A stretch of 64,000 nucleotides of DNA from the NCBI RefSeq assembly GCF_947494875.1, contig NZ_CANLWM010000002.1, positions 62,001 through 126,000 of the forward strand, given 5' to 3'. Made by a program: the position numbers and the translations under genes. The notes under the pieces were generated by a model. That model searched no databases, had not been told where the DNA came from, and worked only from the letters and a program-made list of their open reading frames with translations. The stretch comes from an uncultured Williamsia sp. (GTDB lineage: Bacteria; Actinomycetota; Actinomycetes; Mycobacteriales; Mycobacteriaceae). This document shows, piece by piece, positions 3,375-14,175 of this stretch (its first letter is position 1; every line of letters starts with the position of its first letter).

Positions 3375-4352
3375 TCAGCGCCCGGAACGCACGGTCGGGC
3401 GGAGATCGGCGACGGCCGCGACCGCACGCTGCAGGCTGTAGTCGGGGTCGGGCGCCTGCCCCTTCACCTCGCCGTTGAGGGTCGCGACGATGCCCATGGC
3501 GGTGGCGACGGCCTCTGACGTCCATCCCTGCGCCTGACCCGCGACCTTGCGCACCCGCCACGGCGGCATCCCGAGTTCGGCCGCCGAGGAGTTCGCGTCC
3601 CGTCCGCCCACGGACCGCACGCGGGCGATCGCGTGGATCGCCTCGGCGAGCGCGTCGGCGACGAGGACGTGCGGCACCCCGTGGTGTCCGGCCCAGGCGA
3701 GTGCCTCGAGAGCCTCGGCCTTCTTCCCGGTGACGGCGGCGTCGGCGATCTCGAACCCCGTCACCTCGGGACGGCCCGAGTAGTAGACGTCGACGGCGGC
3801 GGCGTCGACCTTGCCGCCGGTGTCGGCCACGAGCTGGCCGCACGCCGCGGCCAACTCACGGAGGTCGGCGCGGACCGTCTCCACCAGACGCGCGGCGACC
3901 TCCCCGGACACCTTCACCCCCAAGGACGAGAACTCGGCGGCCACGAAGGCGATCCGGTCGCCGACACGGGTGATCGGGGCGCAGTCGTGGACCCGCGCCC
4001 CGGCCTTCCTCAGCGTGGCGGGCATCGTCTTCGTCCGCCCTCCCCCGGAGTGCGCGACGACGAGGGTGATGCCGTCGGGCAGGTCCTGCGCGGCCGCGGT
4101 GATCGCGGCGGCGGGTTCCTTCCCGGCGTCGGCGGCGGACTCCACGACCACCATCCGAGCATCACCGAACAGCGACGGGCTGAGCAGTTCCACCAGGTCG
4201 TGCTCGCCGACGTCGCCGGCCCGGATGCGCGAGACCGGCACGTCGCCGCCCGCGTCCCGGACGGCCTCCGCACGGATCGCCGAGACGGCGCGCTCACCGA
4301 GGAAGTCGTCGTCACCGAGGAGGAGGTGCAGCCGGTCGCTCACCCCGCCCAT
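3375..4352 (-). CDS. holA: DNA polymerase III delta subunit
   Basis: The product is 325 residues from ATG 4352, or 322 from the in-frame GTG at 4343. RLHLLLGDDDFLGERAV, a central ITLVVAHSGGGRTK and the C-terminal helical part with ALAWAGHHGVPHVLVADALA and MGIVATLNGEVKGQAPDPDYSLQRAVAA match HolA, the clamp-loader subunit that opens the beta clamp. In related genomes holA follows comEC on the same strand. Here the 3' end of the comEC remnant overlaps the holA start, preserving the ancestral junction although comEC itself is broken. Confidence 0.93.
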   Translation of the reverse strand: MGGVSDRLHLLLGDDDFLGERAVSAIRAEAVRDAGGDVPVSRIRAGDVGEHDLVELLSPSLFGDARMVVVESAADAGKEPAAAITAAAQDLPDGITLVVAHSGGGRTKTMPATLRKAGARVHDCAPITRVGDRIAFVAAEFSSLGVKVSGEVAARLVETVRADLRELAAACGQLVADTGGKVDAAAVDVYYSGRPEVTGFEIADAAVTGKKAEALEALAWAGHHGVPHVLVADALAEAIHAIARVRSVGGRDANSSAAELGMPPWRVRKVAGQAQGWTSEAVATAMGIVATLNGEVKGQAPDPDYSLQRAVAAVADLRPTVRSGR

Positions 4353-4790
4353 GCTGCCAGCGCGCGCCGACAGACTCGCGGGCGGTGCGCCGACGGGACC
4401 ACAGCACCGCCGCGCCCACACCGACGCCGATGATCGCCGTCGCCGCACCCGCCCCCGCCACCCCGTCGGGCACCGTCAGCGTCGCCCCGGGAGCACGGGC
4501 GAGACGATCGGCGACGACGACCATCCACCACAGTTCCGGACCGGTTGCCCGAGCGAGCACCTCGGCGCCGACCGATGTCATGCCCGTGCACACCGCCGCG
4601 GCGGTGCCGAGCACGGTGATCGGCGCGACCACCGGCGCGACGACGATGTTGGCGAGCACCCCCACCACGCTCACCGAGCCCGCGAACAGCACGACGAGCG
4701 GTGTGGTCACCAGTTGCGCGGTCGCGGCGATGGCGACGGGATCGGCGACCACCCGCGGGATCCGTCGGTCCACGGCGAGCAATCGTGCAG
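4312..4790 (-). pseudogene. comEC: comEC 3' remnant (competence domain C-terminal part)
   Basis: The frame encodes ADPVAIAATAQLVTTPLVV, then LFAGSVSVVGVLANIVVAPVV and APITVLGTAAAV, typical of the last third of the ComEC DNA-uptake channel (Competence domain). It ends after one more membrane segment. The preceding several hundred residues are not upstream; the coding signal stops near 4790 at the island junction. The matching 5' piece lies at 12119-12583 on the same strand. The nominal ATG at about 4782 lies inside former coding sequence, so a functional product is unlikely. The ComEC family identity is firm; the exact break point is inferred. Confidence 0.85.
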
Positions 4791-5135
4791 TTAATGTTGT
4801 CGGTGCAGATCGAGCGGGCCGGCGCCGGGCGCCGCGTGTTCGACCCGGATCTCGTCTCTCTGAAGTGGGTCAGCTAGCCCGGCGCACCGCGCGGGCGTCG
4901 CGGATCCGCTGCAGGCGGCGCACCAGCATCGGGTCGACGGCGAGCGCCGCCGGGTCGTCGAGGATGCGCGCGAGCCGCTGGTCGCCAACGGGCACAGGCT
5001 GATCCCGTGGGAGGCCGACCTGATACGCACCGTGCTGGCGGGCGGTCCTGGCGACGTCGCGGCTCGCTGGGGCTCACTCGCCGGTCGACTTTCCGCGGGC
5101 ACTTCGCCGAGCACCTCGCGCCAGGCGGCGTCGAC
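4791..5135. other. Left island edge, mosaic without an intact gene
   Basis: There is no complete gene in this 345-base stretch. On the minus strand, about 5080-4870, a short frame with strongly GC-biased third positions reads GDQRLARILDDPAALAVDP and MLVRRLQRIRDARAVRRAS before a stop. It looks like the C-terminus of a lost gene. On the plus strand 4794-4877 encodes a 27-residue peptide (VQIERAGAGRRVFDPDL), and another open stretch reads IPWEADLIRTVLAGGPGDV. I recognise none of these. The pattern suggests decayed fragments stacked at the insertion junction. Confidence 0.4.
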
Positions 5136-5705
5136 TTACTCCTGCTCGTGCAGCCGAGCTCGCATGTGGTCGAGGACGGCGGCCTGAGCGTCCTGTAGTT
5201 GCGATCCAGCCGCACGCGGATCAAACGGACGTGAGTTCATACCCTCTCGGACAATGGGTTGCAGGTTCAACAGCTTCACGACGAGATCGACGAGCAACGG
5301 CACCGCCCCATTCAGCACTAGTGCGGACGCGGAAGCTGCGAATTCGTAGCTGAGGTGAATCTCCAGCGGCTCCGTGGTGTTCTTGGGTTGCTCGCACTCG
5401 CTGTGAAGATCGCGGAGGGCCTGATCGGTGAGCGGCGGCACGGTCGAGATCAGTTGGATAGGCGTCAGCGGAACAAGCATTGCGGTCTGCAGACGGCTGT
5501 CGGCGGGGTTGCCGCCCACGATGCGACAGATCTCCCGGTAAGCGCTGGCCGCATAGTTGGTCACCGCACGGTTCAGAAGCTTTGCGTCCTGCCCGAGGAA
5601 CCAGTCGACCTTCTGGGGTTCCACGTGCGACGGGTCCACGATGATGTCCGTGACGAGGTCGGCGAGACGATCGACGATCTCCCGGTGCAAGTCCGCGTTG
5701 GTCAT
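5136..5705 (-). CDS. Hypothetical 189-residue island protein
   Basis: The likely start is ATG 5705 (MTNADLHREIVDRL); the frame is open further upstream but looks non-coding there. The protein is mixed alpha/beta, with HVEPQKVDWFLGQDAKLLNR near residue 30 and a hydrophobic stretch around residues 125-150 (ASASALVLNGAVPLLVDLVVKLL). That stretch could be an amphipathic or membrane-associated helix. Codon use is less GC3-biased than the core. It is the last gene of a four-gene minus-strand run starting at 6586, but a strong hairpin (about 5787-5820) separates it from the gene before. Family unknown. Confidence 0.6.
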   Translation of the reverse strand: MTNADLHREIVDRLADLVTDIIVDPSHVEPQKVDWFLGQDAKLLNRAVTNYAASAYREICRIVGGNPADSRLQTAMLVPLTPIQLISTVPPLTDQALRDLHSECEQPKNTTEPLEIHLSYEFAASASALVLNGAVPLLVDLVVKLLNLQPIVREGMNSRPFDPRAAGSQLQDAQAAVLDHMRARLHEQE

Positions 5706-5786
5706 GACAGACAGTGTTCCCGATGACGGGCCGCCCGCCCATAACGCGGAGTTCGAGCGCGCGCCGCCGTCCGGCCACGGGACACG

Positions 5787-5820
5787 AAGGAACCCTCCCC
5801 ACTTCCCCGGGGGAGGGCCT
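5787..5820 (-). terminator. Hairpin after the 75-residue membrane protein gene
   Basis: CCCTCCCC (5793-5800) pairs with GGGGAGGG around 5809-5817, and flanking AAGG/CCTT extend the stem. Read on the minus strand it follows the gene ending at 5855 and is followed by a short T-containing tail. It may terminate that transcript or attenuate into the 189-residue gene. Confidence 0.55.
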
Positions 5821-5854
5821 TCGTCACAGTGCCTCACGTGCGCCGTTACTCGAA

Positions 5855-6082
5855 CTACTTGAAATACCAGAGCCACAGTTGCGCAAGCGCGAAACTCACA
5901 ACAGCATGGCTGCTGCCGGTCACAAGCCCCTGCACCACACGGCCTTTCAGATCTTTCCTCAGCTGCTCACCGAAGTTTCGCCACTCCGCCCGGTGGGCGT
6001 CCAGCATCTGCTCCAGCTCCTCGCGGTCGATGTCCTTCCCGTCATCGTCGTCATGGTCATTCGGAACCGGGTGATCGTTCAT
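5855..6082 (-). CDS. Small membrane-anchored protein (75 aa)
   Basis: ATG 6082 is preceded by GAGGAG at ideal spacing, which fixes the start. The N-terminal half is very acidic (NDHDDDDGKDIDREELEQML). A charged helix follows (HRAEWRNFGEQLRKDLKGRV). The C-terminal 25 residues are hydrophobic with aromatics (SSHAVVSFALAQLWLWYF) and form a single tail anchor. Cytosolic domain plus C-terminal membrane anchor would suit a small toxin or membrane-sensing partner, but that is inference. It follows the ribbon-helix-helix-like gene in the same direction with an 85-base gap. I do not recognise the family. Confidence 0.6.
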   Translation of the reverse strand: MNDHPVPNDHDDDDGKDIDREELEQMLDAHRAEWRNFGEQLRKDLKGRVVQGLVTGSSHAVVSFALAQLWLWYFK

Positions 6083-6167
6083 GGCTCCTCGTGCTGTCCC
6101 TGTTACAGGTCGACGTCGTTCGAAGACCTGGACGCGGATGGGACACGTCCGCAACTCTGTGGGGCGC

Positions 6168-6383
6168 CTAGTCGGCGTCCTCCAGCAGCCCCCGGGCAGC
6201 CGACAGCGTCGCCGCGCGGACGAAGGCAGACTTCGACGTCTTCACCTTCCGGTCTGCGAGCAACGCGAGCGCCCGATCGATCTCCGCCATCTCCTCTGCG
6301 GTGACCTTGCCCTGGACAACCAGATTCAGGGGAGAACGCTCTTCCAGCAGTCCCCTCAACGTGCTAGCCCCCATCGCGCTCAC
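6168..6383 (-). CDS. Ribbon-helix-helix-like small protein (antitoxin-like)
   Basis: This 71-residue product starts at GTG 6383, or at the ATG three codons in. SPLNLVVQGKVTAEEMAEID could be a beta strand leading into a helix. It is followed by ALALLADRKVKTSKSAFVRA and then TLSAARGLLED, the beta-alpha-alpha pattern of Arc/MetJ/CopG-type DNA-binding proteins that often act as antitoxins or autorepressors. The GTG overlaps the TGA of the upstream 68-residue gene (GTGA), showing translational coupling. A role in repressing its own operon is plausible. The fold call is by eye and moderate in confidence. Confidence 0.6.
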   Translation of the reverse strand: MSAMGASTLRGLLEERSPLNLVVQGKVTAEEMAEIDRALALLADRKVKTSKSAFVRAATLSAARGLLEDAD

Positions 6384-6586
6384 CCCCGTTCTTCGATGTA
6401 GTCACTTCGTGTGTCCTTCTCTTCCAGTTGCGTCCGGAGGCACGTTGCCTCCTTCTGTTCGTCTCCCAGAAACAGACTGCAACCCGTTCCCGGGAGGCCG
6501 CCGACTGCCAGATCGGCTACCTCGACCGCTGGCGCGTCCCACGCACGCGCAGCATCGAGGATGGCCAACGGTATACCGATGTCCAT
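6380..6586 (-). CDS. Hypothetical 68-residue protein, first gene of the RHH operon
   Basis: The gene begins at ATG 6586 (MDIGIPLAILDAARAWDAPA) and ends in a polar tail (CLRTQLEEKDTRSDYIEERG). The stop overlaps the next gene's GTG, which supports this as real coding sequence. The frame is open upstream and the gene may be longer or a C-terminal remnant. Nothing in it is recognised. Confidence 0.5.
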   Translation of the reverse strand: MDIGIPLAILDAARAWDAPAVEVADLAVGGLPGTGCSLFLGDEQKEATCLRTQLEEKDTRSDYIEERG

Positions 6587-6643
6587 CCTCGCGTCAACAC
6601 CACATCGAACACCCCGGAACCGGCTCGCCAGTGTCCGCGTCCA

Positions 6644-6742
6644 ATGGGTGTGAGCATCCTCGACGCCTGGGGCACCGCGGCCATGATCGCCGCGTTCGCT
6701 TTCCTGCTGTACCGCTACCTCGTCGGCCCGCCACCGGACTGA
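6644..6742 (+). CDS. Possible 32-residue membrane microprotein, copy A
   Basis: A short frame from ATG 6644 (alternative GTG 6650) encodes MGVSILDAWGTAAMI then AAFAFLLYRYLVGPPPD, a single membrane helix with a short polar tail. Copy B at 10867 differs by two residues, and two of the codon differences are silent. No clear ribosome site is present, and the last 28 bases overlap the oppositely oriented zinc-ribbon gene. Coding status is uncertain. Confidence 0.35.
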   Translation: MGVSILDAWGTAAMIAAFAFLLYRYLVGPPPD

Positions 6743-6930
6743 CGACGCAGTGAGCGCGGCGCGGTAGGGATGTCGTCGGCGGCGGTGACCGCGTCGCACG
6801 TCCGGCAGACCCAGTGGCGGCACGGGTCGGGCCGCTGGTTGCTCCACCCGACGAGATGCGATCGCGGTCGGCGCCAGTCCGCCCCGCACGCCGGGCACGC
6901 GGGCGGCTTCCACTCGATCCACGGCGACAC
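6715..6930 (-). CDS. Small zinc-ribbon protein, copy A (71 aa)
   Basis: GTG 6930 has AGGAGG just upstream. The protein starts MSPWIEWKPPACPACGADW and has paired CxxC motifs at residues 12/15 (CPAC) and 42/45 (CRTC), plus Cys37, consistent with a structural zinc site. It is 63/71 identical to copy B (10938-11153). Function is unknown; zinc ribbons of this size usually bind nucleic acid or act as adaptors. It marks the left border of each of two cassettes in the island. Confidence 0.65.
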   Translation of the reverse strand: MSPWIEWKPPACPACGADWRRPRSHLVGWSNQRPDPCRHWVCRTCDAVTAADDIPTAPRSLRRQSGGGPTR

Positions 6931-7093
6931 GGGACCTCCTCGGCCCGCGAGGAGTGAGTACCACCCTACGAACGACCACAGACACGCCCTGCGATAAGTA
7001 AAGAGTGCGTAACGCTGTCGGTGCCGCTTCATATACAAGTGTTCGGCGCCCGGATCCGCGAGGCCATTCCTTCGCTCGAGAGACTCCACGCGC

Positions 7094-8266
7094 ATGTCTA
7101 CGCCGCCGCCAGATCTGTCCGGGTTCAACTTCGACCGTCCCGGCGACTTGCCGGCCTGGATCCGGCCGCCGAAGAAGCGTCCGAAGTGGCCGTACATCGT
7201 GGCAGTGGTAATCGTGCTGTTTGTGATCATCGGCCTCGTCGCGCCGAAGGAGCAGAAGGACACCCCCACCCAGGCGGCCGATAAGTCCACTGCGCCGACC
7301 TCCGCATCGGCGGCTACGACGACGTCGAGTGCGGCGCCGTCGCCGACACCCGAGAAGCCGCTCGCCGTGGCCCCCGTCGCCGACAAGGTTGAGAACGCCG
7401 CGCCCGCGAATGCCGCCCTCGCGAAGCTGAACGCGCTCGCGGTCAAGGGGCGTGCACCGAAGACCGGCTACGACCGCGCGCAGTTCGGCCAGGCCTGGAC
7501 CGACGACGTCAACGTCGAGTCCGGCCACAACGGCTGCGACACCCGCAACGACATCCTGCGTCGCGACCTCACCGCCACCAAGGTGAAGCCGGGCTCGAAG
7601 GGTTGCGCCGTCACCTCGGGCACGCTGGCGGACCCCTACACCGGCAAGACGATCGCGTTCACCCGCGGGGAGTCGAGTTCGTCCGCCGTGCAGATTGACC
7701 ACGTCGTCGCCCTGTCCGACGCATGGCAGAAGGGCGCACAGCAGCTCTCAGCCGAGCAGCGTCGCGACTTCGCCAACGACCCGCGCAACCTGCAGGCCAC
7801 CGACGGCCCGACCAACCAGAAGAAGGGCGACGGCGACGCCGCCACATGGCTCGTGCCGAACACCTCCTACCGCTGCACATACGTGTCGCGACAGATCGAC
7901 GTGAAGGCCCTCTACAAGCTGTGGGTCACCCAGGCCGAGAAAGACGCCATGGTCCGCGTACTCACGTCGTGCGGCGCCACTCCCCCGCCGGCGCCGACCA
8001 CCTCGTCCGCAGCACCTCGCCCGACCCGCACGTCCACCGCGACACCCGCCCCGGCCTACACATCGCCACCCACCACACGGGAATACGTCCCGGCGCCAGC
8101 CCCCGCGTACACCCCACCGGCACCGGCGGTGGGCGGAGGCGAGCCGTTCTACGCGAACTGCGATGAGGCGAGGGCCGCTGGGGCTGCGCCGATTCTGGCC
8201 GGGGAGCCGGGCTACCGGCTGAAGCTGGACCGCAACAAGGACGGCGTCGCCTGCGAAAGCAGCTGA
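7094..8266 (+). CDS. Membrane-anchored DUF1524 (HNH-like) nuclease with excalibur domain
   Basis: This 390-residue product has a short Pro-rich cytosolic start and one membrane helix (about residues 34-50, YIVAVVIVLFVIIGLVAP). A Ser/Thr/Ala-rich linker follows, then a secreted domain with CDTRNDILRRDL, VQIDHVVALSDAWQKGA and FANDPRNLQATDGPTNQKKG. These are the conserved motifs of the DUF1524/GmrSD C-terminal HNH superfamily (catalytic His in DHV, Asn/Asp in NDPRNL). A Pro/Thr linker leads to a C-terminal excalibur calcium-binding motif (NCDEARAAG...DRNKDGVACE). It is probably an extracellular nuclease. It is cargo of cassette A. A shorter relative lies in the core at 19769-20449. Confidence 0.85.
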   Translation: MSTPPPDLSGFNFDRPGDLPAWIRPPKKRPKWPYIVAVVIVLFVIIGLVAPKEQKDTPTQAADKSTAPTSASAATTTSSAAPSPTPEKPLAVAPVADKVENAAPANAALAKLNALAVKGRAPKTGYDRAQFGQAWTDDVNVESGHNGCDTRNDILRRDLTATKVKPGSKGCAVTSGTLADPYTGKTIAFTRGESSSSAVQIDHVVALSDAWQKGAQQLSAEQRRDFANDPRNLQATDGPTNQKKGDGDAATWLVPNTSYRCTYVSRQIDVKALYKLWVTQAEKDAMVRVLTSCGATPPPAPTTSSAAPRPTRTSTATPAPAYTSPPTTREYVPAPAPAYTPPAPAVGGGEPFYANCDEARAAGAAPILAGEPGYRLKLDRNKDGVACESS

Positions 8267-8279
8267 CCCACACCGGTGG

Positions 8280-8316
8280 AAGCGCCCCACTCTCGAGATA
8301 AGAGGTCGGGGCGCTT
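8280..8316. terminator. Convergent terminator, cassette A
   Basis: AAGCGCCCC (8280-8288) pairs with GGGGCGCTT (8308-8316), with an inner CTCT/AGAG stem. It lies between the converging DUF1524 and lipoprotein genes. The right arm plus following bases (8308-8328) are identical over 21 bases to 11465-11485 at the equivalent place in cassette B. Confidence 0.75.
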
Positions 8317-8363
8317 CTCTGCGTTCGCAGAGCTTCCCTCCCGCTCGCGACGCTACCGAGACG

Positions 8364-8936
8364 TCAGCAGGTGTACTGGTCGGGGAACCGCACGCATAAC
8401 GGCGGTAGAGGCTGATTGGGCCCGTACCCGTCGCCCGAGTTCGGATCGAATGTCGGTTCGATGTGGTTCCATTGCCCGTTCACACACGTTGAGTAGGTGC
8501 CGCCGCCATCATTTCGCACCTCGCCGGCCGCACACTGTGTGGCGGGACTGCCCTGCTTGGCGCCTTGGCCGTATTGGTCGAGAAGGCACTCCGTCGTGTC
8601 ACAGCCGACGTCGCCCACCGGCGCGTCGGCGTCGATCTGCCCGTCGCAGTCCTTGTCCCAATCTGGCCGGATGCCCGGCGGAGGTGTGCACGACGCCTCA
8701 GCGGTCTGCTCGACGGTCGTCTCGGGCGCGACGGCCGCAGGGGTTGTCGTCGCGATCGAAGGCGGCGGAGGTGGCGACGACGTCGCGCTCGGCGCCGATG
8801 ATGACGCAGACGCGGACGAAGACGGCACCAGGTCGCTCGAGGGCGGGTCGGCCGAGCACGCGCCCAGAACGAGCGCGAACATAGCCGCGACGGCCAGCCC
8901 CAGTGCAATTCGCGCGGTACGCGACCGTGTTTGCAT
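8364..8936 (-). CDS. Secreted lipoprotein, cargo of cassette A
   Basis: This 190-residue protein has an Arg-containing N-terminus, a hydrophobic segment and lipobox LGAC with the lipidated Cys at 27. A long Ser/Pro/Ala/Thr linker follows. The C-terminal domain has many cysteines and an acidic motif WDKDCDGQIDAD, resembling calcium-binding loops, then TTECLLDQYGQG and CAAGEVRNDGGG. No enzyme family is recognised. The ATG has no ribosome site but is preceded by TAGATT six bases away, so the mRNA is probably leaderless. It faces the DUF1524 gene across a shared terminator. Confidence 0.7.
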   Translation of the reverse strand: MQTRSRTARIALGLAVAAMFALVLGACSADPPSSDLVPSSSASASSSAPSATSSPPPPPSIATTTPAAVAPETTVEQTAEASCTPPPGIRPDWDKDCDGQIDADAPVGDVGCDTTECLLDQYGQGAKQGSPATQCAAGEVRNDGGGTYSTCVNGQWNHIEPTFDPNSGDGYGPNQPLPPLCVRFPDQYTC

Positions 8937-9040
8937 GCGGGCAATCTACCCAGGTCGGACGAAATTCCAACCAGCCGTTCGTACGATCAGACGACAGTTC
9001 GATGTAATTACGCCCCCAATCGCGTCGTTTCCCCGAGATG
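8930..9040. repeat. Right-border repeat of cassette A with leaderless promoter
   Basis: About 110 bases resemble 12015-12118 (roughly 75% by eye), with a core TTCGTAYGATCAGACGACA. It contains TAGATT (minus strand, 8943-8948) six bases before the lipoprotein ATG. The same hexamer and spacing recur in copy B. Confidence 0.75.
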
Positions 9041-9069
9041 GCATCCGAACAATCTACCGGTCATCCGTG

Positions 9070-9088
9070 CGACATGCCCGATATGTCG
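9070..9088. promoter_or_regulatory. Candidate operator upstream of the three-gene operon
   Basis: An inverted repeat CGACAT-N7-ATGTCG lies about 65 bases before the first start codon of the 9154-10473 operon. A regulator binding here is inferred from symmetry only. Confidence 0.3.
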
Positions 9089-9153
9089 TGTGAACAGCGG
9101 ATCCGGAACTGCGGAACGCCCCCGTTCGTCAGCCCGTCTGTCACTATGTGGCC

Positions 9154-9483
9154 GTGACCCAAGCAGACCCGCAATCGACTGGAAGCGTGCGAGCGGCATT
9201 GCCCGCCTCCTGGCCGGGCGATTTTTCGTTCGACCCCCAGGTCATCAACCAGGTCGCCATCACGTTCGACCAAGGCAACCCGGAGCTTGTGTACCTAATG
9301 TTCGGGCACATCGGCCCGCCGCTCTGGATGACGGACGACGCGGTCGAGCAGGGCATAGCCCAATACGAGGCCGAAGGTGGGGTTCCCGTCACCACGCGCG
9401 GATCGTTCGTTGTTAGCAGGACCCGTGCGATCGAGATTTGGGAATCGATGGGTCGCATGCTCGGGACCCTGCCGGGTCAGTGA
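9154..9483 (+). CDS. Hypothetical protein, first gene of three-gene island operon
   Basis: The chosen start is GTG 9154 (an in-frame GTG also exists at 9148). CACTAT lies six bases before 9154, consistent with a leaderless transcript. The 109-residue product contains VRAALPASWPGDFSFDP, NQVAITFDQGNPELVYLMFG and VVSRTRAIEIWESMGRMLG. No family is recognised. Its TGA overlaps the next gene's GTG (GTGA), so the two are translationally coupled. Third codon positions are less GC-rich than in core genes. Confidence 0.6.
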   Translation: MTQADPQSTGSVRAALPASWPGDFSFDPQVINQVAITFDQGNPELVYLMFGHIGPPLWMTDDAVEQGIAQYEAEGGVPVTTRGSFVVSRTRAIEIWESMGRMLGTLPGQ

Positions 9484-10064
9484 CTTCGTCCAAGCTGGCG
9501 CTGAGTATTGCGGCCGGGCTGATACCCCAGTCGTACGTGCTCAAAGGAGTACTAGACGCTCTCCTAGACCGTCCTCGCCCTGTAGTCGACGCGTACACGC
9601 GACCCACACAAACGACGTACCATTTGTCAACTCGCGCGGTCGGCGTGTCCGGAACAATCGAGTTGCTCGCAACAGCGAGGTCGAACGGGTCGCCGCCGAT
9701 CGAGCGCACCACGACAGCGAGGGAGGTCGTGTTGTCAAAACTGGACGCGATCTCGCGTCTGCAGGACGGTTGGGACGGGCCCGGTAGCAGCCACGTCGGC
9801 CCCCCAATATTGGAGGCCTACCGCTACCTCGTCTCACGCCTGTCGGCCCCGTCGGCGGACCTAGAGCCCATGCCCACGCCGAGCGGCGGGATCCGCATGG
9901 AGTGGGACCGCGGTGATACCAATTACGTGGTGGAGCTAGAGCCCGGTGGCGGTATGTTCCTGTGCTCCATCGGCCCGACTCCCGATGACGACTTCGAGTT
10001 CGAGGCCGAGCGGGTGGACATCAACACCGTCATCGACTTCTACGTTAGCGGCGTCGTTGGCTAG
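9480..10064 (+). CDS. Conserved-type hypothetical protein with DGWDG and PTPSGG motifs
   Basis: This 194-residue product starts at the GTG overlapping the preceding stop. The C-terminal half has LSKLDAISRLQDGWDGPGS (motif at 96-103), then PTPSGGIRMEW (132-142) and YVVELEPGGG. From memory this matches a widespread unnamed family whose members carry a W-D-G motif and a P-T-P-x-G-G-x-x-x-E-W strand, often paired with a small protein like the next gene. That family recollection needs a profile search. Function is unknown. Confidence 0.65.
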   Translation: MTSSKLALSIAAGLIPQSYVLKGVLDALLDRPRPVVDAYTRPTQTTYHLSTRAVGVSGTIELLATARSNGSPPIERTTTAREVVLSKLDAISRLQDGWDGPGSSHVGPPILEAYRYLVSRLSAPSADLEPMPTPSGGIRMEWDRGDTNYVVELEPGGGMFLCSIGPTPDDDFEFEAERVDINTVIDFYVSGVVG

Positions 10065-10473
10065 CCCCTCGCCGGTCGGAACGCTCATCGACCCGTGCGA
10101 CAAACTGCTGTTCCGTCAGATCCACCCGCTCAAGATGAAAGCCGGGCAGCCGGGCGTATCGAACTTCGTTCCCGAGAACAAGGTGAACCTGTCCACCCGT
10201 CGACAGGAGATCACAGCTCAGGGCGCCCACGAAGCGCACGTAGCTATCCCCTTGCAGTCTGCCGGCACCTGGGCGATCACCAGCCAGGAGGCGCACGACG
10301 TGGCGGAGCTGCCTGCGTACGACGACGAAAATTTGGGCGGGAACGGGCCATTCCATGTATCGGTGTGGTTTCCCAGCAACATCACCCGTGGCGCCCGCGA
10401 GCGGATCGCACGCGGCCTTCACGAACGGGCGGTGAAGCGCGGCCGCGGCGGCTGGCTGTACGGGCCCGTCTGA
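10057..10473 (+). CDS. Conserved-type small protein, third gene of the operon
   Basis: The frame from TTG 10057 overlaps the previous stop by eight bases and gives 138 residues; ATG 10135 is a shorter alternative. Motifs are DKLLFRQIHPLK (RQIHP at 20-24), FVPENKVNLSTRR and GTWAITSQEAHDVAELPAYD (from residue 70), then a C-terminal basic helix (RGARERIARGLHERAVKRG). From memory this resembles a widespread small family (RQxxP, PxxKD/N, LSxxR, GxWxxTxxE) found next to DGWDG-type proteins in very different bacteria. This pairing argues for a functional module, possibly defence or toxin-antitoxin. Confidence 0.6.
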   Translation: MASPSPVGTLIDPCDKLLFRQIHPLKMKAGQPGVSNFVPENKVNLSTRRQEITAQGAHEAHVAIPLQSAGTWAITSQEAHDVAELPAYDDENLGGNGPFHVSVWFPSNITRGARERIARGLHERAVKRGRGGWLYGPV

Positions 10474-10493
10474 GGATCCGCCCATAACGCGGA

Positions 10494-10760
10494 CTATGAG
10501 CCCTCGGCCGAAGATGTCCGGCGGCGAAACAGAGGGTAGGCGTTCGATCGCCCCTTCTCATCAGACGAGACGCTCCAGTTCGTCAGCACCCACCCGCGTG
10601 CTTCGACCGCAGAGATGATCTCGGACCATTCGGGCATGCCATGAGTCGAAGAAACGCGCAGTGTTCCGTACAGCTCAGCGGCGAAGACCGTGTGGCCGGC
10701 TTCCTCGACTTTCTTCAGATCGTCGAGCACAACCGCTTCTCCGCTCTTGAACAACCCCAT
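10494..10760 (-). CDS. Hypothetical small protein (88 aa), island
   Basis: ATG 10760 gives MGLFKSGEAVVLDDLKKVEE, and the C-terminus contains SEIISAVEARGWVLTNWSVS then KGRSNAYPLFRRR. The pattern 'I..IE..GW.L......KGR..AY.LFRR' recalls a common small actinobacterial family of unknown role. It converges with the three-gene operon with 20 bases between stops. No ribosome site is obvious. Confidence 0.6.
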   Translation of the reverse strand: MGLFKSGEAVVLDDLKKVEEAGHTVFAAELYGTLRVSSTHGMPEWSEIISAVEARGWVLTNWSVSSDEKGRSNAYPLFRRRTSSAEGS

Positions 10761-10866
10761 ATGTCAGCCAATCTGTTCGATGTTCTCGTCGCACGAGCCG
10801 GTAGATCCTCATAACGAGTCTGCATGAGCGCTCTCAGTGGAACCGCCGCCGACCGCGCTGCGTCCA

Positions 10867-10965
10867 ATGAGGGTGAGCATCCTTGACGCCTGGGGCACCG
10901 CGGCCATGATCGCCGCGTTCACCTTCCTGCTGTACCGCTACCTCGTCGGCCCGCCGCCGGACTGA
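10867..10965 (+). CDS. Possible 32-residue membrane microprotein, copy B
   Basis: It encodes MRVSILDAWGTAAMI then AAFTFLLYRYLVGPPPD. It differs from copy A at residues 2 and 18. It overlaps the 3' end of the minus-strand zinc-ribbon gene by 28 bases, as in copy A. No clear ribosome site is present; coding is unproven. Confidence 0.35.
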   Translation: MRVSILDAWGTAAMIAAFTFLLYRYLVGPPPD

Positions 10966-11153
10966 CGCTTCAGCGATCGCGGCGCGGTCGCGATGTCGTC
11001 GGCGGCGGTGACCGCGTCACACGACCGGCAGACCCAGTCCTGGCACGGAGCCGCGCGCTGGTTGCTCCACCCGACAAGGTGGGATGGCGGCCGGCGCCAG
11101 TCCGCCCCGCACGCCGGGCACGCAGGCGGCTTCCACTCGATCCACGGCGACAC
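10938..11153 (-). CDS. Small zinc-ribbon protein, copy B (71 aa)
   Basis: GTG 11153 lies behind the same AGGAGG as copy A. CPAC (12/15) and CRSC (42/45) are intact. The eight differences from copy A cluster in the loop between the CxxC pairs (residues 34-39), suggesting a stable zinc core with a drifting loop. Function unknown. Confidence 0.65.
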   Translation of the reverse strand: MSPWIEWKPPACPACGADWRRPPSHLVGWSNQRAAPCQDWVCRSCDAVTAADDIATAPRSLKRQSGGGPTR

Positions 11154-11211
11154 GGGACCTCCTCGGCCCGCGACGAGTGAGCGCCAGCCTACGACGTCGT
11201 AGCCTCAGCCC

Positions 11212-11430
11212 ATGGCCGAGGCGAATTTCACCGACGACCCGTGGCACAACCTCGACGAATACATCAAGTGGCACGACCGGCTGAGAGACGTGTCAGACGC
11301 CGAACGCGAGCTGGTTCGGTTCATCGAAGAACTGCATCGGTTCGCTGTAGTTTCACCGAGCATCGGCATCGGTGTCGCACTCGAGAACGTGCGGAGAAAG
11401 CTATCGGACGAACGCCCCCGTTCGTCGTAG
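11212..11430 (+). CDS. Hypothetical 72-residue protein, cargo of cassette B
   Basis: MAEANFTDDPWHNLDEYIKW starts at ATG 11212, preceded by TAGCCT six bases upstream (leaderless type). The product is helical and charged (DAERELVRFIEELHRFAVV), with no signal peptide or cysteines. It occupies the position held by the DUF1524 gene in cassette A but is unrelated to it. Confidence 0.55.
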   Translation: MAEANFTDDPWHNLDEYIKWHDRLRDVSDAERELVRFIEELHRFAVVSPSIGIGVALENVRRKLSDERPRSS

Positions 11431-11439
11431 ACACGAAAC

Positions 11440-11470
11440 CGCCCCACCCTGGAGGTCACAGGGTGGGGCG
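11440..11470. terminator. Convergent terminator, cassette B
   Basis: A perfect 12-base stem (CGCCCCACCCTG 11440-11451, CAGGGTGGGGCG 11459-11470) sits between two converging genes. The downstream flank matches the cassette A terminator flank. Confidence 0.8.
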
Positions 11471-11538
11471 CTTCTCTGCGTTCGCGGGCTTCCCTCTCGG
11501 TCACGCTGTGCCGACGGTAGCGCCCGCCTACGACACGA

Positions 11539-12021
11539 CTAGTTGTCGTTGGTCAGCCTGGCTTCTGCGCTGATCTGCGATCCCTCGTCCTTCGCATCAC
11601 AGGTGTAGCCCGTGTAGCCGTTGTAGCCCCCGAAGCTGTTGCGGGCGTTGACCTCACCTTCGACCTTCCAGGTCTTGCCCGTTGAGGAAGTGATCCGGCC
11701 GTCGCGGAACTGCGCCGAGTCGGGATCCTTCAGCGCATCTTTGACTGCGTTCTGACAGACGGTGAGGATGCGGTCATCGCTCGGTCGATCCGACGGCGAT
11801 GTCCGGGAGTACCCAGAGATCGACAGCAGCACCACTGCCACGATCACCACACCGAAGAACGACGCGATCCATAGCCCCCATCTGCGCTTCTTCTTCGGAT
11901 GCTGCGGCGGCGGCGATCCGGCCTGCAGGTTGCGGGTCGCGCTCGTCCACTGGTTGCCGTCCCACCAGCGCTCGCGTGGGGCACCTTCGGGATCGGGGAA
12001 CCACCCCATCGGTTGAGTCAT
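11539..12021 (-). CDS. DUF2510-type membrane protein, cargo of cassette B
   Basis: The 160-residue product begins MTQPMGWFPDPEGAPRERWW and continues DGNQWTSATR, the DUF2510 motif of actinobacterial membrane proteins. A basic stretch (KKKRRW), one membrane helix (about 48-68) and an exported domain with VCQNAVKDALKDPDSAQFRD follow, a motif common in secreted actinobacterial and phage proteins of unknown role. TAGATT lies six bases before the ATG (12028-12033), so the mRNA is likely leaderless. It takes the place of the lipoprotein gene of cassette A. Confidence 0.75.
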   Translation of the reverse strand: MTQPMGWFPDPEGAPRERWWDGNQWTSATRNLQAGSPPPQHPKKKRRWGLWIASFFGVVIVAVVLLSISGYSRTSPSDRPSDDRILTVCQNAVKDALKDPDSAQFRDGRITSSTGKTWKVEGEVNARNSFGGYNGYTGYTCDAKDEGSQISAEARLTNDN

Positions 12022-12118
12022 GAGAGCAATCTATCGAGGTCGAACGACGTTTCCGGGCAGCGTTCGTATGATCAGACGACACCCTGCCTGTGATGACACC
12101 CTCAATCGAGCCATTTCC
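12015..12118. repeat. Right-border repeat of cassette B, reaching the comEC junction
   Basis: Homologous to 8930-9040. It ends at TTTCCCC immediately before the comEC LLAVSG codons, so the repeat end and the island end coincide. Confidence 0.7.
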
Positions 12119-12583
12119 CCGGACACCGCGAGCAGGTGGGTGAGTCCACACCGCCGGAAGGCCTCGAACAGATCGTCGTCGAGGCCGGAGGTGTCGCCGA
12201 TGACCATGCCGGGCAGCAGGCCCGACTCGCGGGCGGGCAGCGCGGACCGACTGACGGTGGCGAGCCGGTCACGGACCTCGGCGGCCCACCGCTGGTGCAC
12301 CGGGGGTGCCCGGACGTCGCGCGGCGCGCCGGTCGCCCGCAGCGCCGCCGCGGTGAGGTCCCGGCGCAGGGGTGGCGTCACCGTGACGACCGCCAGCAGG
12401 TGCTGCCCGGGCAGCAGGCCCTCCCAGGCGTCGGCCCGTGCGGTGACCACCACCGGGACGCGTCCGCCGTGCTCACCCACCGCGACCGCACGCGCTAGGG
12501 CGGTAGGGCGACCGGACCCGTCCTGGACGACTCCGACGACCGGGATCCTGTGCACCGCGGTGGACCTGGGGAGACCCGGCCGA
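12031..12583 (-). pseudogene. comEC: comEC 5'-side remnant (truncated at both ends)
   Basis: The frame encodes VVVTARADAWEGLLPGQHLL, GLLPGMVIGDTSGLDDDLFE and AFRRCGLTHLLAVSG, the diagnostic start of the ComEC Competence domain. It runs into island sequence after LLAVSG and stops at 12031. On the other side degV ends at 12584, so the ComEC N-terminal membrane segments and comEA, which normally lies between degV and comEC, are absent. comEC therefore lost its 5' end, was interrupted, and lost an internal part. A functional uptake channel is excluded here. Confidence 0.85.
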
Positions 12584-13444
12584 TCAGGTGACGGTGTATC
12601 CCTCGATCGGGTCGAGGCCCGGGCAGACGACGACCCCGACCGCACCGCGACCGGTGTGCGCGGTGAGCACCGGCCCGAGGTCGGTGACGACCGCCGAGGT
12701 CACCACGCGCAGCTTCTCGGTGAGCCGCTCCAGCACGTCGGCCGCGACGTCGACGGCGTCGGCGTGCACGATCCCGACGGTCGTCGGCTGCCGGTCGGCC
12801 GCGGCGACAGCGGTCGACACCATGGAGGTGAGTGCCTTGGAGAACGTGCGCTGCCGCTCGGCGAGCACCAGGCTGCCGTCCACGACGCGCAGCACCGGCT
12901 TGATCGACAGCGCGGTGCCGAAAAGTCGTGTGGCGGCACCGATCCGGCCGCTCGCGCGGAGGCGACCGAGATCGGCGACGCAGACGAGCGTCTCGCTGGT
13001 CGACGCCGCGCGGATGGCCGACTCGTACACGCGGTCCATCTCCCCGCCCGCCCGCGCCGCCTGTGCGGCCGCGACCGCGGCGAATCCGACGGCCAGTCCC
13101 ACCGACCGTGTGTCGACGACGCGGACGCGGCCGGGGAACGCCTCGGCCGCCAGCCGCGCCGAACTCCACGTGCCACTGAGCTTGCGGCTCATCGAGACCG
13201 CCACGACGCCGTCGCCGTCGCTGTCGGCGACGGCCGTCTCGAACACGGCGGACAGGTCGGCCGGCGTCGCTCCGGAGGTGGTGGTGCCGGTCTGGTCGAG
13301 GACGTCCGGGCCGATCTCGTCGACACCCTCGGAGAGGTCGGTGTCGCCGGTCAGGACGTGCAGCGGCACCTGCCGGATGTCGTAGTGCTGCCGTATCGGC
13401 GCGGGGAGCCGTGCCGAGGAATCGGTCACCACGACGACGGTCAC
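12584..13444 (-). CDS. DegV family fatty-acid-binding protein
   Basis: This 286-residue protein starts at GTG 13444, overlapping the octT stop (GTGA). MTVVVVTDSSARLP, TSGATP (56-61) and SRKLSGTWSSA (86-96) are the DegV signatures. These proteins bind a fatty acid and in Firmicutes deliver it to a FakA-type kinase; a DhaL/FakA-like protein is encoded at 22757-24487. Gene order octT-degV matches mycobacteria. A direct FakA partnership is inference. Confidence 0.92.
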   Translation of the reverse strand: MTVVVVTDSSARLPAPIRQHYDIRQVPLHVLTGDTDLSEGVDEIGPDVLDQTGTTTSGATPADLSAVFETAVADSDGDGVVAVSMSRKLSGTWSSARLAAEAFPGRVRVVDTRSVGLAVGFAAVAAAQAARAGGEMDRVYESAIRAASTSETLVCVADLGRLRASGRIGAATRLFGTALSIKPVLRVVDGSLVLAERQRTFSKALTSMVSTAVAAADRQPTTVGIVHADAVDVAADVLERLTEKLRVVTSAVVTDLGPVLTAHTGRGAVGVVVCPGLDPIEGYTVT

Positions 13445-14175
13445 CGCGCCAGCCTAGGTGATGCGACGAGGGGCGCCACCGCGCGCGCGACCTCGTCGGC
13501 GACATCGCGGTGGCAGGCGAACCCCCAGTGGATGCCGTCGGGGTTCTGCTCGCCTCCGGCCGAGAACGCCCGCGCGGTCGCGGGGTAGAAATCGGCCGTC
13601 GCGATCGCGTGGTCGTCGGCCCATCGACGCATCGCCGCCGTGTGCCCGGCGCGGGCGGTGTGCACCCGCGCGTAGTACTCGCTGTCGTGGGTGGACGGCA
13701 GGCACAGCACGATCGGCAGGTCCGGTCGGATCACCGCGACCGCACCGCGGATCTTCTCGAGGTACTCGACGGTCACCCGGGCGGGCAGTGCGACCGGCCA
13801 CCCCAACGGCGCGAACGCGGCCTGCGCCCATCCGTACGCGTCGCGGACGCGCCGGCGCAGCCACTCCGGGCGGAGGTAGCGGATCTGCTCGCGCAGCGCG
13901 GTGGGCAACGGCGACGGGAGGGTGTCCATGCCCCCGATCGCCAGCACGAGCACCTGCGCCCGCGGCACCGCCGCCCAGATGCGCGGGTCCTGGGTCAGTG
14001 CCCACCACACGTCCCGGGTGGTCCACCCGATCCGGCCGAACAGCTCGACCTCGCACCCCACCGCGGCACCGAGCAGATTGGGCCAGATGCGGGGATCGTC
14101 GGCCGGCAGTCCTCCCTCCGGCCCGTAGTAGGCCAGCGAGTCCGACAGCACCAGCAGGTGCCCGTCGGCGCTCAT
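13441..14175 (-). CDS. octT: SGNH-type diglucosylglycerate octanoyltransferase family protein
   Basis: The 244-residue product starts at ATG 14175, overlapping the gpgP stop (ATGA). HLLVLSDSLAYYGPEGGLP carries the GDS-like nucleophile block, and QNPDGIHWG near the end carries the Asp-x-x-His of SGNH acyltransferases. In mycobacteria the orthologue, next to gpgP, octanoylates diglucosylglycerate during methylglucose lipopolysaccharide synthesis. Position beside gpgP supports this; activity here is inferred. Confidence 0.85.
   Translation of the reverse strand: MSADGHLLVLSDSLAYYGPEGGLPADDPRIWPNLLGAAVGCEVELFGRIGWTTRDVWWALTQDPRIWAAVPRAQVLVLAIGGMDTLPSPLPTALREQIRYLRPEWLRRRVRDAYGWAQAAFAPLGWPVALPARVTVEYLEKIRGAVAVIRPDLPIVLCLPSTHDSEYYARVHTARAGHTAAMRRWADDHAIATADFYPATARAFSAGGEQNPDGIHWGFACHRDVADEVARAVAPLVASPRLAR

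Follow-up and report, generated by a model that had tools for sequence, protein, structure and literature searches.

Paired cassettes in an interrupted comEC gene of an uncultured Williamsia sp. are very probably remnants of two related serine-integrase prophages

We analysed a stretch of 64,000 nucleotides from an uncultured Williamsia sp. (contig NZ_CANLWM010000002.1, positions 62,001 to 126,000; hereafter the window), in which an island at about 4,774-12,117 interrupts a minus-strand comEC gene and carries two gene cassettes, A and B, with matching borders and different cargo. We are highly confident that this island represents the decayed remains of two related prophages with serine integrases and a layout like that of the Gordonia phages of the genus Jujuvirus, which used the LAVSG codons of comEC as their attachment (att) site, probably in tandem. 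An earlier note on the same DNA had described the two cassettes and proposed that cargo is exchanged by recombination between their borders.

The N-terminal half of comEC ends in the codons for LLAVSG (12118-12135), and the C-terminal half resumes at 4773; the Pfam model Competence matched both halves as well as the intact gene of W. serinedens. Relative to the latter, 112 codons are missing between the halves, and the 5' part of comEC towards degV, a side identified by Pfam DegV, is missing from the window as well. A search of the organism's own genome returned one match each to the N half and the C half and no intact comEC. At the left end of the island are stubs of a serine integrase and a DUF3263 gene (Table 1), in the order and with the relative strands seen in W. 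deligens, where PF11662 was found in the DUF3263 homologue. The guanine-plus-cytosine content was 63-68% in 1-kb segments of positions 5-12 kb, compared with 72-74% in the two segments on either side. Together, the split comEC and the two stubs indicate that the island is a prophage relic that has lost its integrase, its left attachment site (attL) and the middle of comEC.

Self-comparison of positions 4,001-13,500 gave three direct matches in the same order and on the same strand in both cassettes: the border blocks (coordinates in Table 1; 335 bp, 90.1%, 456 bits), the terminator blocks (70 bp, 81%, 65 bits) and a promoter-repeat block (8934-9035 against 12019-12121; 104 columns, 75%, 61 bits). 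Fifty first-order Markov resamples of 4781-12118 gave a non-self direct match of 32.8 bits at most, below all three blocks, which rules out chance as the source of the border similarity. The pair of cassettes with matching borders was thus borne out, as was the 21-base identity reported next to the terminator, GGGGCGCTTCTCTGCGTTCGC, which is present in both. The cargo was likewise found to be unrelated, since the best blastp match between the two proteins of A and the two of B had E = 0.014 over 23 residues.

Table 1. Features of the island and of the comEC fragments that flank it (positions of the window; aa, amino acids; ORF, open reading frame; attR, right attachment site)
Feature	Start	End	Strand	Description
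comEC C-terminal half (gene fragment)	4312	4773	-	Pfam Competence 2.5e-15; 77% over 91 aa to W. deligens C half, E 1e-40
Serine integrase stub, last 34 residues	4773	4874	+	65% to residues 447-480 of W. deligens integrase, E 1.5e-11
DUF3263 C-terminal remnant	4873	4980	-	86% over 36 aa to W. deligens gene after integrase, E 1.5e-16
Rest of element A	4981	6636		ORFs 5136-5705 (-), 5855-6082 (-), 6168-6383 (-); no known family
Border A	6637	6971		zinc-ribbon gene 6715-6930 (-) and 32-residue peptide 6644-6742 (+); 90% to border B and to W. serinedens prophage-like stretch
Cargo A, plus strand	7094	8266	+	predicted HNH-type nuclease, GmrSD_C (DUF1524) and Excalibur domains; membrane segment at N terminus seen by eye
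Hairpin terminator A with conserved flank	8280	8349		folds on both strands
Cargo A, minus strand	8364	8936	-	lipoprotein by a lipobox seen by eye; related in its C-terminal part to gp36 of Jujuvirus Blueberry
Leaderless-type promoter repeat and phage arm up to att-like core (internal junction)	8934	9037	-	75% to 12019-12121
Left part of element B	9148	10473	+	small gene 9148-9483; PDC-M32A-like 9480-10064; PDC-M32B within 9946-10473
88-aa ORF	10494	10760	-	no known family
Border B	10860	11194		zinc-ribbon gene 10938-11153 (-) and 32-residue peptide 10867-10965 (+); from self-comparison
Cargo B, plus strand	11212	11430	+	72-aa protein, no known family
Hairpin terminator B	11437	11505		folds on both strands
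Cargo B, minus strand	11539	12021	-	DUF2510 protein with membrane segment (by eye); PF10708 1e-11; phrog_2320 4e-21
Promoter repeat and phage arm of attR	12019	12117	-	82% over 67 bases to W. serinedens comEC-side arm
comEC N-terminal fragment	12118	12555	-	ends ...THLLAVSG at junction; Pfam Competence begins there, 1.7e-5

The zinc-ribbon gene of each border is named from two CxxC pairs recognised by eye, and neither of its products, A or B, had a Pfam model above the cut-off; the 32-residue peptide inside each 335-bp block has the look of a membrane segment, again by eye. Zinc-ribbon relatives were seen in the genome scan in W. serinedens and W. deligens only, and a family search returned matches at E ≤ 0.001 in 30 of 301 genomes, many of them short and weak. 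Of eight genomes of the genus searched, seven had a match of some length and four, among them the organism's own, a match of at least 200 bases; matches shorter than 65 bases in this search were not counted further, nor were Pfam lines below the cut-off. Both hairpins stand between convergent cargo genes and fold with z of -3.9 to -5.7, better than all 200 shuffles of each. The motif TAGATT a few bases ahead of the ATG in A, B and W. serinedens is the basis for the proposed leaderless promoter, and a consensus promoter scan (one site against 0.5 expected) gave no support for one of the sigma-70 type. The promoter repeat, the third of the matching blocks, ends within a few bases of the junction between phage and comEC, a junction that the earlier note had missed. 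We also observed a 36-base imperfect palindrome (89%) at 6556-6591, directly left of border A, and further short repeats between the island halves, one of 24 bases (87.5%; 5735-5758 and 10478-10501) and one of 17 exact bases (9114-9130 and 11410-11426), both near chance level.

In W. serinedens the border runs directly into the terminator without plus-strand cargo and thus provides an empty site. In 0-based offsets along this site, the left side of A ends at 73 and its right side resumes at 74, and the left side of B ends at 58 and its right side resumes at 63, so the insertion points of the two plus-strand cargo genes are some 10-15 bases apart. On its outer side the W. serinedens border adjoins one copy of a perfect direct repeat of 95 bp; the other copy is 42.3 kb away, and the part examined between the two contained an endolysin (phrog_2998, 7e-118) and tail-fibre matches. 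The repeat has tRNA-like 3' sequence, but ARAGORN finds no tRNA in that stretch, and we rejected the idea that the repeat closes a full tRNA gene. Near the other copy ARAGORN finds a tRNA-Val gene, about 170 bases from the repeat (L171 1291-1540), so that several tRNA-like 3' ends stand close together. For the minus-strand cargo, that of B and the gene next to the W. serinedens comEC junction are 37% identical over B residues 4-81 (gapped, E 4e-15), with nothing significant beyond this N-terminal part (best E 0.42).

Use of the same comEC codon recurs among relatives, of which W. deligens and W. serinedens fall in the GTDB genus of the window. In W. deligens comEC is split exactly as in the window, and its other half is found on another contig beside a serine integrase of 480 aa (PF00239, Resolvase; PF07508, Recombinase; phrog_95), followed by the DUF3263 gene and an IrrE-like gene; the right side holds a zinc-ribbon gene, genes for a toxin and a HicB-like antitoxin, and a GDSL gene that weakly matches a tail fibre. 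(Genes of relatives were called by codon usage, by which small genes can be missed.) Among 351 genomes of the family, 31 matched this integrase at E ≤ 1e-80, in 33 places. We scanned 30 of the 33 loci for comEC with at most 1.5 kb of flank each, several being cut by contig ends, and found it within that distance in three: W. deligens and the genomes G263 and G015, both of a genus other than that of the window. In all three, comEC is broken right after LAVSG. The genome G140 is probably a fourth case, in which the integrase and a comEC fragment both end at contig edges at this same point and the arm resembles that of G263. These four carry the four best integrase matches (61-100% identity); the next-best integrases, including a second W. 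deligens copy at 58%, are elsewhere or were not placed at comEC, and no comEC was found in the 12 kb examined at the W. deligens place G001:C5, one of the three outside the 30 loci.

A full-length serine integrase occupies the comEC codon in W. deligens and G015. In G015 the integrase side and the C half of comEC are 40 kb apart, and the part examined between them holds genes for tape-measure, minor-tail and endolysin proteins; by the C-half junction are gene fragments with a Jujuvirus-like lipoprotein tail (29 residues, E 5e-8). With a fragment from W. serinedens, a comEC broken after LAVSG was found in five places (the window, W. deligens, W. serinedens, G015 and G263). This second W. serinedens fragment stands beside a full degV and ends in a similar phage arm, beyond which comes a DUF2510-type gene. 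It is a partial duplication of the comEC locus: the fragment and the complete degV are on one contig (L041 1-2444), the intact comEC, a ComEA-like gene and a 3' piece of degV are together on another (L042 9959-12806), and both contig ends look by eye like transposase sequence. The ComEA-like gene, so named from helix-hairpin-helix and SLBB matches (the names HolA and transposase or insertion sequence were given by eye), stands between degV and comEC in both W. deligens and W. serinedens and has no counterpart at the locus in the window.

Among the phage matches to the integrase that were listed (15 of 190 records), the best were to Gordonia phages. We viewed this region in six of them, MissRona, Toast, Fenry, Frokostdame, Wocket and Jalammah, and in Blueberry; the likeness is to Jujuvirus (Blueberry, MissRona, Fenry, Frokostdame, Wocket and Jalammah) and is looser for Toast (Fairfaxidumvirus). 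The order in the six regions is tail genes, a small minus-strand gene, variable cargo, a minus-strand lipoprotein gene, the serine integrase and a small minus-strand helix-turn-helix gene; the small minus-strand gene after the integrase is annotated as DUF3263 in Blueberry. Annotation gives a metalloprotease next in MissRona, Toast and Blueberry only, and a peptidase note in Fenry; RelB/RelE are among the variable genes in three of the six (Fenry, Frokostdame and Jalammah). Over some 40-75 residues at its C terminus, the minus-strand cargo of A is related to the att-proximal lipoprotein of five of the six regions, Toast being the exception (Frokostdame gp38, E 2.7e-14 over 51 aa), and it is also related to Blueberry gp36 (blastp E 1.4e-11, 39% over 76 aa). 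An att-proximal minus-strand lipoprotein is thus seen in cassette A over its C-terminal part, and cassette B has the DUF2510 protein in that position. The plus-strand cargo of A (PF07510 over its full length, 2e-23; PF05901, 2e-15) is 55% identical over 281 aa to gp27 of Gordonia phage Finkle, whose gene stands between tail genes and a tyrosine integrase; a segment DHV...N...NQ.K with HNH-type residues is conserved between the two, consistent with a predicted nuclease. The Gordonia phages differ from the window in that their conserved small gene encodes a 75-aa minus-strand protein and not a zinc ribbon, in that no comEC-like arm could be recognised by eye before their integrase genes, and in that the window holds only a remnant.

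Several observations weigh against a pair of prophages of this kind. Of 11 phage proteins compared with the island by tblastn, only the integrase and DUF3263 matched, at their stubs; there was no tblastn match for three proteins of tail or lysis, nor for the IrrE-like protein of W. deligens in 4774-12118. The scanned ORFs of the island included none recognised as a capsid, tail or repressor gene. With no virion genes recognised, the island can be called a remnant and not an intact prophage. The zinc-ribbon protein of B had no match in 50,697 phage records, and no relative of the zinc-ribbon protein was confirmed in viral contigs; the Toast region has other genes in place of the lipoprotein gene. 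Among the relatives, the G263 integrase carries an in-frame stop, W. serinedens retains an intact comEC besides the split fragment, and the integrase adjoins the N half of comEC in G263 and G015 and the C half in W. deligens, that is, at the same codon with opposite polarity. Finally, the left side of the internal junction (9038-9150) resembles by eye neither comEC nor the att arm of W. deligens, and 9036-9160 matched only itself and nothing in the other seven genomes of the genus. Because this left side is unmatched, the reading of 9037 as a tandem att junction is unproven, and we put tandem integration forward as what appears to be the best reading of the arrangement.

Duplication in place of the right end of a single prophage remnant, with the cargo of one copy replaced later, would also give two copies in the same order within one island. 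However, borders A and B and their W. serinedens counterpart give pairwise identities that are equal in effect (304/336, 305/338 and 304/335, with 11, 13 and 11 informative sites), so that W. serinedens is as close to either cassette as the two are to one another. The first 22 bases of the arm at 9037 also differ at one position from the comEC-side arm of W. serinedens and at four from the island's own attR arm. Equal border distances point to two related phages and argue against a local duplication, which we consider unlikely. Still less probable, in our view, is that a phage satellite or chromosomal island, and not a phage remnant, makes up element B (9038-12117), integrated next to a prophage of the same att specificity. 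Its short length and candidate defence pair would fit, and phage-inducible islands with serine integrases are mentioned for mycobacteria (PMC10654092). However, the scanned ORFs of B included none recognised as an integrase, primase or packaging-interference gene, and the border of B also occurs inside the 42-kb prophage-like stretch of W. serinedens.

The earlier note's explanation, in which the borders would serve a dedicated cassette system as the sites of recombination by which cargo is swapped, draws on the different cargo within the same borders and gains from the clean-edged empty site in W. serinedens. However, the insertion points of A and B differ, which excludes a single fixed exchange site; the integrase stub is the only recombinase recognised; and the borders carry genes, with an att junction as their outer flank. 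We hold such a system to be highly improbable. As to an integron array, the borders are gene-bearing blocks of 335 bp and no tyrosine integrase was found among the Pfam-scanned ORFs, attC-like folds not having been searched. The idea of modular exchange was therefore partly right: conserved borders, differing cargo and the empty site all stand, and what is not supported is a role of the borders as recombination sites, as they are parts of a prophage end (phage arm, promoter-like repeat, terminator and zinc-ribbon gene). The cargo swap is then phage mosaicism at an att-proximal accessory locus, and because such mosaicism suffices, no dedicated exchange mechanism is needed.

Under the preferred reading of two related prophages, each cassette would be the att-proximal accessory locus of one phage, ordered as zinc-ribbon gene with small peptide, plus-strand passenger, bidirectional terminator, minus-strand exported or membrane passenger and the phage arm of att. 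Integration would set the minus-strand passenger just inside att with its own leaderless-type promoter, which may allow it to be made in the lysogen while the lytic genes are silent, and the terminator would separate it from the opposing transcript. The passengers would differ through gene exchange between such phages at this locus. The break at the comEC codon used by integrase-bearing prophages, the two stubs, the matching layout in phages and the empty site are all shown directly, and tandem integration, expression of the passengers during lysogeny in this host and a role for them in excluding other phages or foreign DNA are inferred.

The remaining genes of the island include a candidate defence pair, PDC-M32A/B, which stands between the two cassettes (9480-10473). 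PDC-M32B was matched by PADLOC at 3e-15 and the PDC-M32A-like gene at 2e-5, the latter over the C-terminal part of the model only; PDC-M32 is described as a hypothetical defence system in PMC12429752. The predicted nuclease, the lipoprotein and this pair could plausibly act in excluding other phages. Neither the 72-aa cargo protein of B, nor the 88-aa ORF, nor ORF 5136-5705 had a match above the cut-off in Pfam, PHROGs, PADLOC or NCBIfam. ORF 6168-6383 had none in Pfam, PHROGs and PADLOC, and ORF 5855-6082 had none in PHROGs, the sole library with which it was scanned.

Comparable arrangements have been described. An excerpt of PMC6426606 names Blueberry 36 and its homologues as possibly involved in defence, in a passage on lysogen-expressed genes (the record's numbering is assumed to apply). 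Prophages of M. abscessus carry att-adjacent polymorphic toxin-immunity cassettes that are lysogenically expressed, according to sections of PMC8092301, where the variable cargo is likewise just inside the att junction and in one example runs against most phage genes; there, however, the cargo consists of WXG-100 toxins and immunity proteins, and not of an HNH-type nuclease, a lipoprotein, a DUF2510 protein and a 72-aa protein. The comEC prophage of W. deligens (L027/L040) shares the codon, the serine integrase, the DUF3263 gene and a zinc-ribbon gene near attR, and differs in an intact integrase, in passengers that all point in one direction and are apparently unrelated, and in the toxin and HicB-like genes by its zinc-ribbon gene. 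In pneumococcus, prophages disrupt the competence genes comYC and ssbB (PMC12637031, in part), and there too insertion breaks a DNA-uptake gene, whereas the target here is comEC and the integrase a serine recombinase. Serine integrases that disrupt open reading frames on integration are also known, from the same sections of PMC8092301. Among the literature matches listed, in which few subscription journals were covered, titles and the starts of abstracts gave no account of comEC as an attachment site in Mycobacteriales, which is a weak negative. What is noteworthy here is comEC as the attachment site, prophages in competence genes and serine integrases that disrupt open reading frames being already known.

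A broader proposal is that comEC is a recurrent, dedicated attachment site for one clade of prophages with serine integrases, in at least two genera of this family. Insertion would turn DNA uptake off, so that the prophage could not be removed by transformation, and the att-adjacent passengers (an exported HNH-type nuclease, a lipoprotein and a DUF2510 protein) would form a barrier at the surface against other phages and foreign DNA. We offer this as a tentative idea and regard it, taken as a whole, as rather doubtful.

The cassette pair can now be read as a series of phage events, and the region between the tail genes and the integrase is worth inspecting for exchangeable passengers in actinobacterial prophages. 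Because a Blueberry relative of the minus-strand cargo of A has been named as a possible defence gene, cassettes such as A and B provide a short list for tests of phage defence. With comEC used repeatedly as attachment site in two genera, the disabling of a DNA-uptake gene by prophages can be put to the test in Actinobacteria.

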